Assembly: GCA_019244055.1 (NCBI GenBank)
Contig: JAFATG010000322.1
Coordinates: forward strand, 1-33,798
Reading direction: 5' to 3'
Length of the DNA: 33,798 nucleotides
DNA from: Acidobacteriaceae bacterium
GTDB lineage: Bacteria; Acidobacteriota; Terriglobia; Bryobacterales; Bryobacteraceae
Shown: piece by piece, positions 2,892 through 5,780 of the stretch
Position numbering within the stretch: position 1 is the stretch's first letter
Layout: every line of letters starts with the position of its first letter
Notes under the pieces: generated by a model
Seen by the model: only the letters and a program-made list of their open reading frames with translations
The model's database searches: none
Told to the model about the DNA's origin: nothing
Made by a program: the position numbers and the translations under genes

Positions 2892-2928
2892 CCGGATGCT
2901 CCGGATTCGCGTGAATATGCAAGCGAAT
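2892..2928. terminator. Hairpins in the rpoD / methyltransferase convergent gap
   Basis: Immediately after the rpoD stop, CCGGA-TGC-TCCGG (2892-2904) can form a 5-bp stem. ATTCGC (2905-2910) pairs with GCGAAT (2923-2928) across a 12-nt loop. Neither is followed by a T-run, so intrinsic termination is only a possibility. The position between two convergent genes is what makes it worth noting. Confidence 0.3.
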
Positions 2929-2966
2929 TGCAACTTACTCCAATGAAATTGAAGGTTGGGGCGAGG

Positions 2967-3998
2967 CTAAAACAGTTCAGTTTGTACGCTTCCATTGCTT
3001 GCAACGGCTGAATTGGATGGCCGCCCAAAGCGCACTTTACTCGCTTCCAGATATTCAGGGATACGTTCCATAGCGATCCATCGGCGCCGAAGCCCTTCAG
3101 CTACAACCCCCGTTGTATTTGATCCAGCGAACGGATCCACAACTGTGTCTCCTTCATCCGTCAGCAGCTTGATAAAAAATTCCGGCAAAGCAGCCGGGAA
3201 ACGGGCAGGATGCATCTTAAGGCCCAATTCCTTGCTTCTCTTCGCGTAAGCGTCGTTGGCTGCGTTGTTCCCGAACTTGAGCATCGCCTCTGGGATCGGA
3301 ATGTCAAGTCCTTCCAACGGCTCGTCCTCAATTACGTTGGCGGGAATCGCGCCACCGGCCTCAACCTTATCGAACGAATCGCGAATGACATGCCCCGATG
3401 GACGAACCGCGGGCCTCACACCTCTACGGCTCAACCGGATCATGTCGGGGCTATATTCCTTGAGAACGCGTATATTGTTTGCCTTCGGCCAAGGCGTTTT
3501 GGACAGCCACCATACGTACTCCACGGAGTCTTTGATGCGAATTCGCCGAACTGTCACCCATTCGGCCGGCATCGGCATTTTGGCTGGGTTATACCAGAAG
3601 CATTCCTGAGCAAGCTGAAAACCAACATGTTCAACGAGAGCAATGAGGAGATGGAAATGATAAAGAGACCGGGTAGGGGTACCTTCGTTATAGCTGCCGC
3701 CGATGTTCAACACGAAGCTGCCATCATCCCTAAGTATTCGCCAAATCTGTTTGGCAAATGGAATGAACCATTTCACGTAATCGCGCTTATGGGCATTCCC
3801 ATACTCTTTCTTAAAGTGGAGGGCGTATGGGGGCGAGGTGAATACCAAATTCGTGCTGCCCGCCGGCAATCGAGCCAGTAGCTTTTCAGAATCACCTAGG
3901 AAGGCTGTACCAAGAGCCGTACGGTATGCGGGCTGCTGCCGAAATGAGGCCTCCACATCAACTGTGTTGACCTCCGTATGTGTCTGTCTTCCTGACAT
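2967..3998 (-). CDS. DNA (cytosine-N4 type) methyltransferase, M.PvuII-like
   Basis: This is a site-specific DNA methyltransferase, the protective half of a restriction-modification pair. In the 343-aa form, the catalytic motif IV TSPPY is at about residues 54-58, and the SAM-binding motif FAGSNTTG is at about 290-297. This is the permuted (beta-class) order with catalytic motif first. From memory, the resemblance to M.PvuII runs along most of the protein: SPP(F/Y)AL followed by KEYGN, the EWV-then-RIRIKD block, RPSGH, HPARFPA(A/K)LPEFFI and GSNTTG(L/V)VAE. N4-cytosine methylation, and possibly a CAGCTG-like target, are therefore likely but inferred. Starts: ATG 3998 (used here) or TTG 4025, which adds nine residues; neither has a clear ribosome site. 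The gene is divergent from the HTH/nuclease pair, the same layout as classic PvuII-type systems. Confidence 0.92.
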
Positions 3999-4030
3999 GA
4001 GGCGGTCGATTACACTCCTGTTCAAGTCGC

Positions 4031-4040
4031 TATAATTATC
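4031..4040. promoter_or_regulatory. Candidate divergent -10 elements of the R-M module
   Basis: The gap between the divergent genes contains TATAATTATC. On the plus strand TATAAT (4031-4036) is a perfect -10 hexamer reading toward the HTH/nuclease genes. On the minus strand the same bases give GATAAT (4040-4035), a 5/6 match reading toward the methyltransferase. No good -35 was found at 16-18 bp on either side (plus strand: GATTAC at 4008-4013). The overlap would make the two promoters mutually exclusive, but this is inferred only from sequence. Confidence 0.4.
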
Positions 4041-4067
4041 GACGATTACGACATTAGCACGAATTGA

Positions 4068-4080
4068 TTGACAATGTCAA
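4068..4080. promoter_or_regulatory. 13-bp palindrome over the HTH start codon, candidate operator
   Basis: TTGACAATGTCAA is a perfect inverted repeat with 6-bp arms (TTGACA / TGTCAA) and a one-base centre. The ATG of the small HTH gene (4074-4076) lies inside it. A repressor bound here would block transcription or translation initiation of the HTH/nuclease operon. Each arm also reads TTGACA, the -35 consensus, on its own strand, but no good -10 sits at the right distance on either side. The operator role is inferred from symmetry and position. Confidence 0.45.
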
Positions 4081-4274
4081 GCCATTTACGCGACGCGAAC
4101 GAGTGGATTTCGCAAGCCGAAGCGGCCAGGCTTCGGGGCGTGTCGCGGCAGGCAATTGGTTTGCTGGTTAAAAAGGGACGATTGCCGGTGCTGAAGATAG
4201 GAGGCCGCGTACTCGTCCGACGCAAGGCACTTGAGGAGTTCACGCCCGGCGCGGCGGGAAGACCTCCTAAATGA
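4074..4274 (+). CDS. Small excisionase-type HTH DNA-binding protein, candidate R-M controller
   Basis: A 66-aa protein dominated by one winged helix-turn-helix of the MerR/excisionase (HTH_17) kind. The pattern is [18 protein letters not shown] (helix-turn-helix), then [22 protein letters not shown] (wing and last helix), then a basic tail. ATG 4074 is chosen over TTG 4068 because ATG is the stronger codon. It overlaps the nuclease gene by ATGA (4271-4274), implying translational coupling. It sits where PvuII-like systems carry the C (controller) protein, but those are Xre/lambda-repressor-type HTHs, so this is a different DNA-binding class. Controller function is inferred from position, coupling and the palindrome over its start. 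It could instead be a leftover from a mobile element. Confidence 0.8.
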
Positions 4275-4975
4275 GCGACTTGACGGAAAAGATATGCAAA
4301 CTGATCGACAGATGTAGGGAGGACGAGCAGCGTCTCATACTAAGTTACCTGCGCCGGCGAGTTCCAGTTCACCCGTTGGAACGCGAATGGAGTACGTCTG
4401 CTGAAGCCATTCTAACCGCGATCGCGCGTTCGTCTGATCTAACGCAACGAGGGATTAGGGGAATCCTTGCAGAGGCAACATTCGAGGAAACAGTAATTCC
4501 TCGTTTAACCGCGGCAGGTTGGAATGCCGCGCCGATATTTGGCGATCAGTCCTACGATTTTCTCTTGGAGAAGGATGGAACGCGCGTTCGAATACAGGTG
4601 AAGCTCCAACGTCGTGAGGCGGGCGTTCCCAAGAATTATGCTGCCCGTTCGCGCGCTCCTCTCAATTGTCCTTCTGGCAGGATCTATGTTGTCGAGGTGC
4701 AGAAGACAAGAAGCGGCGAAAAGAAGGGGCGGAAGACCCGGCCATACCGTTTTGGTGATTTCGACATATTGGCTGTCAATCTACATCCCTCCACTGGCGA
4801 TTGGAAGCGCTTCATCTATACCGTTGGAAACCGGCTTCTTCCGCGATCGAAAGAATCGGACTTGATTGAGATTTTTCAACCGGTGCCGGAATGCACTGAC
4901 GAATACTGGACTGATGACTTGGTCCGTTGCATCGAGTGGTTCGGTCTCGGAACGCAGAAGCGACTGTACTCATAG
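4271..4975 (+). CDS. Probable type II restriction endonuclease, PD-(D/E)XK fold
   Basis: A 234-aa protein with no close family that I recognise. The visible nuclease signature is E72/E73 in [11 protein letters not shown], then a small-domain turn ([17 protein letters not shown]) with D96, then [11 protein letters not shown] giving Q109-x-K111. That is a PD-(D/E)XK-type core in which the usual Glu before the Lys is Gln, a substitution known in some members of the superfamily. The N-terminal ~65 residues are helical. The C-terminus (roughly 140-234) holds an [11 protein letters not shown] strand, a basic patch and [16 protein letters not shown], which may contribute to DNA recognition. It has no visible similarity to R.PvuII itself. 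Coupling to the HTH gene and divergence from an M.PvuII-like methyltransferase support a restriction role. A nuclease-like protein of another function is possible. Confidence 0.75.
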
Positions 4976-5057
4976 GAGTCTAGGCGAGGCCGCCTGCGGC
5001 TCCGGGACATCCGGCGAAAATGCCTTCCAACCGTCTGAGCTATGTTGGGGATTCAGA

Positions 5058-5780
5058 ATGGCAGAAGCTGAAACCGCCGCGGCAAACTTTGAGCACCCGG
5101 TAACTCCGCCCCGCAAGGTACCCAAACCGAAGACGGCTGCCGATCGGAAGGCGCGACTCAATCGGATCCTTGAAGGACTGGATCACCTCTTCCCGAAAGC
5201 GACGTGCGCGCTCCACCACAGGGATGCCTGGGAGCTGCTGGTCGCAACGATTCTGTCGGCGCAGTGCACGGACGAGCGCGTGAATAAAGTCACCCCGGAT
5301 CTGTTTAAGAAATATCCCAAAATCGAGGCCTTTGCGAAGGCGCCTCAGGAAGAACTCGCCGCTGATATTCGCTCTACCGGCTTCTTCAATAACAAATCGA
5401 AATCGCTGATTGGAGCCGCGAGGAGAATCCTGTCTGACTTTAACGGGCATGTGCCGAAAACGATGGACGAATTGCTAACCGTTCCGGGCGCCGCCCGCAA
5501 GACGGCCAACGTCGTATTGGGAACTGCGTACGGCATACCTTCGGGCGTGGTCGTAGATACGCACGTCCAAAGGATTTCGCTAAGGCTGGATCTCACGAAA
5601 AACACGGACCCGATAAAGATCGAGCAAGATCTGATGAGAACGGTTCCAAAGGACAAATGGATCCTATTCGCTCATCAAGTGATTCATTTCGGCCGCACGA
5701 TCTGTGTGGCACGCAAACCGCGATGCTCGATTTGCCCATTGGACCCGGTCTGCTACGCGAAAGATAAGACTCTCGCCTAG
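5058..5780 (+). CDS. nth: Endonuclease III (DNA glycosylase/AP lyase)
   Basis: Nth removes oxidised pyrimidines in base-excision repair and cleaves the abasic strand. The core is full length: LLVATILSAQCTDERVN, the helix-hairpin-helix VPGAARKTANVVLG with the catalytic Lys, VVVDTHVQR with the catalytic Asp, and a C-terminal iron-sulfur motif C-x6-C-x2-C-x5-C (CVARKPRCSICPLDPVC). The hairpin reads PGAA where PGVG is common, a mild deviation. ATG 5058 is chosen because the frame upstream (open back to 4866) overlaps the nuclease gene and looks non-coding. The resulting N-terminal 35 residues are Ala/Pro/Lys-rich, a modest extension over E. coli Nth. The next gene starts 10 bp after the stop, so the two are probably cotranscribed. 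Confidence 0.95.
   Translation: MAEAETAAANFEHPVTPPRKVPKPKTAADRKARLNRILEGLDHLFPKATCALHHRDAWELLVATILSAQCTDERVNKVTPDLFKKYPKIEAFAKAPQEELAADIRSTGFFNNKSKSLIGAARRILSDFNGHVPKTMDELLTVPGAARKTANVVLGTAYGIPSGVVVDTHVQRISLRLDLTKNTDPIKIEQDLMRTVPKDKWILFAHQVIHFGRTICVARKPRCSICPLDPVCYAKDKTLA

Follow-up and report, generated by a model that had tools for sequence, protein, structure and literature searches.

A conserved dyad at the start codon of a small winged-HTH gene in a restriction-modification module, candidate operator of a putative controller

The module and its genes

The window, i.e. the whole stretch of 33,798 nucleotides analysed here (contig JAFATG010000322.1 of an Acidobacteriaceae bacterium, assembly GCA_019244055.1), harbors between rpoD (1236-2891) and nth (5058-5780) a three-gene module composed of a methylase, a small helix-turn-helix (HTH) protein and a nuclease, whose features are collected in Table 1. 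The methylase gene is divergent from the HTH gene, and its product displays full-length homology to the M.PvuII structure 1boo (residues 18-324, E 1.1e-90) and shares 47.7% identity with the Proteus vulgaris plasmid record NC_002632.1. In the PvuII system the controller gene lies ahead of the nuclease gene, with the methylase divergent, and the controller, C.PvuII, is a helix-turn-helix C protein that acts through C-boxes ahead of its promoter. The module described here shares with PvuII both the homologous methylase and the gene layout.

Concerning the putative controller, the HTH protein scores above the cut-offs of Pfam HTH_17 (37.4 vs 27 bits) and NCBIfam TIGR01764 (33.6 vs 28.8 bits), and no XRE family was recovered in it by a Pfam search up to E 0.1. 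The order of the elements in its AF2 model (mean pLDDT 80.5) is that of a winged HTH, and the nearest solved folds are those of phage Xis and BldC, including 6ama, 4j2n and 8dgl, the best of them at E 0.035 and none at E 0.001 or better. An identification as Mad1 of the MADS system, offered by the PADLOC mad1 profile (E 3.3e-8), was rejected, the NCBIfam equivalog scoring only 15.5 vs a cut-off of 80.

The nuclease is assigned tentatively, as PDDEXK_5 stays under its cut-off (24.0 vs 26.1 bits), with a fold match to I-Ssp6803I (best E 3.1e-5) and with residues E68, D96, Q109 and K111 invariant across eight aligned homologues; R.PvuII is not found among the fold matches listed for it. The stop codon of the HTH gene (4272-4274) overlaps the nuclease ATG at 4271 in the form of an ATGA. 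A small regulator gene placed directly ahead of the nuclease gene and overlapping it is a trait of the classical type II C systems, and it is present here.

The nuclease has no match in any of 16 genus mates (0/16), and in 12 of these rpoD and nth are separated by 2-660 bp, as compared with a gap of 2166 bp (2892-5057) in the window; in the other four, rpoD falls outside the stretch compared. Hence, the module is probably an insertion beside the housekeeping sigma gene.

Table 1. Coordinates of the module's genes, the dyad and the predicted promoter elements in the window.
Feature	Positions	Strand	Basis or remark
DNA methyltransferase, M.PvuII homologue with TSPPY	2967-3998	-	N6_N4_Mtase 142 bits (Pfam)
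Predicted HTH-nuclease -35, ATTACA	4009-4014	+	consensus promoter scan
Predicted HTH-nuclease -10, TATAAT	4031-4036	+	perfect in 6/21 modules, all close ones
Predicted methylase -10, TAATGT (spacer 18); alternative GCTAAT (spacer 16)	4051-4056	-	TAnnnT pattern
Extended 25-bp dyad, candidate operator, AATTGATTGACA-A-TGTCAAGCCATT	4062-4086		10/12 arm positions symmetric; kept in 21/21 modules
Core palindrome TTGACAATGTCAA, 13 bp	4068-4080		perfect 6-bp arms, one-base centre
Putative controller, 66-aa winged HTH, HTH_17/excisionase family	4074-4274	+	Pfam, NCBIfam, AF2
Predicted methylase -35, TTGACA (right arm of the core)	4075-4080	-	TTGACA in 20/21 modules; TTGACG in L037
Putative restriction endonuclease, PD-(D/E)XK type, 234 aa	4271-4975	+	weak PDDEXK_5, fold match

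The dyad in the window and in related modules

The first-pass annotation had pointed out that the HTH gene starts within a perfect palindrome. The core indeed reads TTGACA-A-TGTCAA, its central base, 4074, being the A of the ATG. It forms the inner part of a longer dyad, whose consensus is AATNGGTTKACA-N-TGTCAACCNATT. The accompanying claim that such a match is unlikely to arise by chance finds no ground in the window alone, which contains five perfect 13-mers of the same type as compared with a mean of 10.3 (sd 2.7) in 30 Markov-1 resamples; from these numbers a chance palindrome would be likely, and the window by itself makes no case for the element. What rules chance out is the conservation across 21 modules presented below. 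The genome adds little, since in the window's own 6.2-Mb assembly the 25-bp motif has a single match at three or fewer mismatches, namely the site itself with 0 mismatches, but the pattern written backwards, used as a control, also gave one match per strand.

Related loci were obtained from searches with the nuclease or the HTH protein, in which 5 of 100 genomes of relatives, 5 of 396 of the phylum and 7 of 257 of the order matched, from searches with the HTH protein, matching 24 of 399 genomes of the class and 23 of 299 of one other family, and, in addition, from two loci of genome_contigs and one phage record. Genomes partly recur between searches, and after removal of duplicates 21 distinct loci harboring both the HTH gene and a methylase were left, all of which entered the analysis.

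Each of the 21 carries the 25-bp dyad with an identical centre position, so that the check proposed together with the palindrome, its conservation in homologous modules, turned out in its favour. On average 9.43 of the 12 arm positions match (range 8 to 11), whereas with the centre placed at 228 other positions within 60 bp the mean is 3.10 (sd 0.61, maximum 4.81), and the same contrast with other centres is found in a subset of 17 modules. When the surroundings of the HTH start were searched blindly for their best dyad, the element ranked first in 17 of the 21 cases, the exceptions being L002, L004, L015 and L030. The inner 13-mer, for its part, is perfectly symmetric in 8 modules only.

The limits of the element are sharp. 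In 17 modules the information content amounts to 1.0-1.9 bits at most positions from -12 to +13, with lower values at -9, -7, -4, 0 and +9, and drops to near 0 at +14 to +17 and in most of the upstream columns, the largest of which, -23 and -18, are located where a minus-strand -10 would lie. The left half, which is non-coding, is bounded as sharply as the right half, which is coding in most modules. Positions -2/+2 are C/G and positions -5/+5 are T/A in 21/21, and the innermost pairs that flank the one-base centre are likewise kept. Position 4 behaves differently in the two arms, with C in 21/21 on the right and G in 9, T in 11 and C in 1 on the left. Three loci (L010, L011 and L012), in which distant relatives of the nuclease stand in tandem with a related methylase, nuclease first, and which carry no HTH gene, lack the element. 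A separate observation concerns L003, where the nuclease frame is broken by one in-frame stop and the methylase, the HTH gene and the dyad are intact.

In 19 of the 21 modules the HTH gene could start exactly at the centre of the dyad. Over all 21 the codon found there is TTG (11), ATG (6), GTG (3) or TCG (1). Codon 2 is TCA in all of them; for reference, TCA makes up 54 of the 536 Ser codons in 16 ORFs of the window. The TCG belongs to L037 and is not a start codon, and in L030 an in-frame stop follows about two codons later, just past the element. Since both modules keep the element with no usable start, its conservation is not explained by coding.

Overlapping predicted promoters and the probable binding protein

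The right arm of the core coincides with a predicted -35 of the methylase gene. At 16-18 bp from it a minus-strand TAnnnT is present in 19 of the 21 modules, as compared with at most 9 for spacing windows clear of that range, a maximum reached near the plus-strand -10. In the window the methylase -10 is weak, matching the consensus at 3/6 (TAATGT) or 4/6 (GCTAAT) positions, and a consensus promoter scanner lists no minus-strand promoter between 3900 and 4300; L037 and L042 have no good methylase -10.

On the opposite strand, ATTACA-16-TATAAT is the sole promoter-like site that the scanner reports in 3900-4300, shuffled sequences giving a mean of 0.2. A perfect plus-strand TATAAT occurs 41-43 bp before the centre in six of the 21 modules, and many distant ones show poorer matches. 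Of the two divergent -10-like hexamers annotated earlier at 4031-4040, this is the one that stands, while the minus-strand partner (4035-4040) is not conserved in nine upstream regions. The predicted starts would fall at about 4043 (+) and 4044 (-), so polymerases on the two promoters would be expected to exclude each other. The element itself is found at the start codon, ~31 bp downstream of the predicted plus-strand -10. A classical C-box ahead of the promoter was considered and discarded, the upstream alignment being conserved at the plus-strand TATAAT and the dyad alone. It should be noted that position 4, invariant in the right arm and variable in the left, behaves as a second function of the right arm would predict.

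To identify the binding protein, the sites were compared with the residues of the HTH helix in 34 loci with a readable site, 21 of them the restriction-modification (R-M) modules and the remaining 13 taken from 19 further HTH loci. Where the site has C(-2)/G(+2), in 28 loci, helix residue 25 is always R or K; where it has A/T or T/A at these positions, in six loci, the residue is always P or Q. This split should be taken as strong but not as proof, given that the six loci represent about three lineages, that some of the centres were placed by eye and that six loci were omitted. No other residue in columns 12-56 separates the two site classes. Among the 13 sites outside R-M modules seven are top-scoring dyads, and those of L025, L027, L028, L035, L051 and L057 are the ones placed by eye; the loci omitted, which show no recognisable dyad, are L038 (Q25), L040 (S25) and L039, L054, L058 and L059 (R25). 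Residue 25 and the bases at positions -2 and +2 change together, which suggests that the HTH protein is the binder, and the comparison supports the view of the dyad as a DNA operator on which this protein would act.

HTH relatives also occur without the methylase, in L028, L029, L031, L033, L035, L036 and L041, where dyads with other half-sites are located at the gene start or close to it. The neighbour of L028 is a TraI-type helicase, and that of L041 a TrwC relaxase gene.

Proposed regulation, alternatives and known controllers

When R-M genes enter a new cell, the methylase must be made before the nuclease. The arrangement described above suggests how this order could be achieved, and we think it probable, judging from sequence comparison, that the 66-residue winged HTH protein binds the operator at its own start codon, shuts the methylase promoter, frees the HTH-nuclease promoter and partly roadblocks itself. 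On arrival of the module the HTH protein would be absent, and RNA polymerase would initiate at the methylase promoter, where the operator's right arm would serve as the -35; methylase would be made first, and polymerase engaged there would keep polymerase off the overlapping, opposite HTH-nuclease promoter. As the HTH protein builds up, two monomers would sit symmetrically on the dyad and cover the methylase -35 together with most of the spacer, whereupon methylase transcription would drop and the HTH-nuclease promoter would be released. The bound protein, which would lie ~20-45 bp past the point where HTH-nuclease transcription is predicted to begin, would at the same time act as a partial roadblock that limits both HTH protein and nuclease.

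This picture retains part of the earlier proposal, in which a bound protein represses its own translation start and the nuclease. Autoregulation of the HTH-nuclease operon is likely, since the dyad behaves as an HTH operator, but a DNA-bound protein would act on transcription, by roadblock or occlusion, and not directly on translation. The proposal had also missed the methylase, which is the likeliest main target because the right arm is the predicted -35 of this divergent gene.

Autoregulation might, of course, be all that the dyad serves, the overlap with the methylase -35 being incidental or the methylase being driven from elsewhere. The weak -10 of the window, absent from the scanner list, would fit such a reading, as would the dyads found at or near the gene start of HTH relatives outside R-M modules (7 of the 13 used being top-scoring), which argue that such a site needs no methylase beside it. 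We nevertheless regard it as unlikely in view of the TTGACA kept in 20/21 modules with TAnnnT at the right distance in 19/21, and of the fourth position of the right arm, fixed as C where its left-arm counterpart varies. A reading in terms of RNA, with translation controlled by a hairpin of the HTH leader whose loop holds the start codon, appears extremely improbable: the start codon does fall in a loop in many folds, and z is below -2 in 5 of the 21 modules (-4.75 in L026), but the mean z is only -1.13, the letters are fixed rather than the pairing alone (-2/+2, -5/+5 and the innermost pairs), and the site changes together with a residue of the DNA-recognition helix.

The position of the element between divergent methylase and nuclease operons, over the methylase -35, would also suit a recognition sequence of the module's own methylase or nuclease, whose methylation tunes the promoters; promoter control by methylation is described for other systems in the introduction of PMC6237814. 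However, a fixed-spacing element of 25 bp would be long as a type II site, and similar dyads with other half-sites accompany HTH homologues in loci where no methylase was found, so that this reading is hardly credible. It is also very unlikely, in our judgement, that the site belongs to some regulator serving the whole host and having no relation to the HTH protein, or that it is conserved through coding constraint on the HTH N-terminus or through recent common origin, even if an exact copy of the motif is present in a phage contig with no HTH relative found in 8.3 kb and most modules have coding sequence in the right half. Against these readings speak the one site at three or fewer mismatches in the genome, a weak point in light of the backwards control with its one match per strand, the equally sharp limit of the non-coding left half, the outside columns mostly near 0 bits, and the persistence of the element in L030 and L037.

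The switch between overlapping promoters that we favour has a close counterpart in the Kpn2I system. According to the account in PMC6237814, C.Kpn2I, an XRE-type controller, blocks the methylase -35, thereby frees the overlapping promoter of the controller gene and, bound within the reading frame of that gene, acts there as a roadblock, all of which was tested at the bench, and its authors present the arrangement as unique among C proteins. As far as that account goes, the two systems share a controller gene divergent from the methylase, a site at the start of the controller frame (here in 19/21 modules) and over the methylase -35 (a strong promoter in Kpn2I, a predicted one here), and overlapping methylase and controller promoters; the rise of controller transcription as methylase transcription falls, and roadblock autoregulation, would be further common traits, suggested here by the anatomy. 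They differ in the controller, which is HTH_17/excisionase-like here and of the XRE family in Kpn2I, in the nuclease, which in Kpn2I has its own C-independent promoter and here overlaps the HTH gene through the ATGA, and in the motif, a three-base outer inverted repeat with an A/T-rich centre in Kpn2I as compared with a 25-bp dyad with 12-base arms on the start codon (PMC6237814). Unlike the classical C proteins, moreover, the HTH protein does not display an XRE-type (HTH_3-like) fold, and no C-boxes are found upstream of the controller promoter or overlapping it.

With its 66 residues the protein resembles, according to its model, the BldC, Xis and RdfS types, i.e. small (<70 aa), stand-alone, MerR-like winged HTH proteins with no effector domain. 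BldC is the best known of these small relatives and, among small winged-HTH regulators, the nearest whose complex with DNA has been solved. It is described as binding direct repeats, head to tail (PMC5859096), in contrast to the inverted repeat conserved here, which is a point against the model, and BldC-type direct repeats were discarded on account of this pattern. RptR, as reported in PMC12255303, is likewise a small repressor that travels with R-M genes, but it belongs to Type I systems, has a different fold and recognizes three short TAGCTA palindromes over a -10. The CvkR repressor of CRISPR-associated transposons, in the description of PMC9938897, is also MerR-type, divergent from its target, with overlapping promoters and a 15-nt inverted repeat; it differs in its size (150 residues) and in controlling transposon genes instead of R-M genes.

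In the literature consulted, the stand-alone type II controllers described are XRE-type C proteins, and among the matches listed from the open-licence PMC literature, mostly at title or abstract level, no MerR-, excisionase- or BldC-type R-M controller was recognised. If the model is true, an unrelated winged-HTH family has arrived at the overlapping-promoter-plus-roadblock logic of Kpn2I, on a PvuII-type methylase, with a single operator that takes in both a start codon and a promoter -35, and a specificity hypothesis of one residue for one base pair follows. Whether this amounts to a second, independently evolved class of R-M controllers, in which an Xis/BldC-like winged HTH acts on an inverted repeat, seems to us evenly balanced. 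In such a class the 25-bp element would be at once operator, methylase -35 and start with first codons of the controller gene, one binding event would reverse which of the overlapping promoters fires, and relatives would have their specificity reset at residue 25; since such proteins sit at comparable dyads beside conjugation genes, the switch may be common to mobile elements.

A final point is related to phages and plasmids. The whole module is present in the Dolichospermum phage record PP438407.1 (L042, 2856-4856), with 68% identity for the methylase and 47% for the nuclease, an unannotated HTH gene and the dyad kept as AATCGGTTTACT-T-TGTCAACCCATT; the record also lists a DNA partitioning protein. 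The only exact match to the 25-bp motif in the viral collection is located in a phage contig (L111, 889-913), upstream of what appear, on reading by eye, to be phage terminase genes, with a second, partial TTGTCAACC-like site ~110 bp further on and no HTH relative near it in 8.3 kb; this copy weighs against the model, and it may be due to chance, belong to another regulator or be a decoy site. The HTH protein gave no match in plasmids. Viral contigs searched with the single nuclease sequence gave four pattern stretches and no relative, the nuclease alignment found one 35% relative with neither HTH gene nor methylase in the stretch, and the HTH alignment recovered 26 loci.
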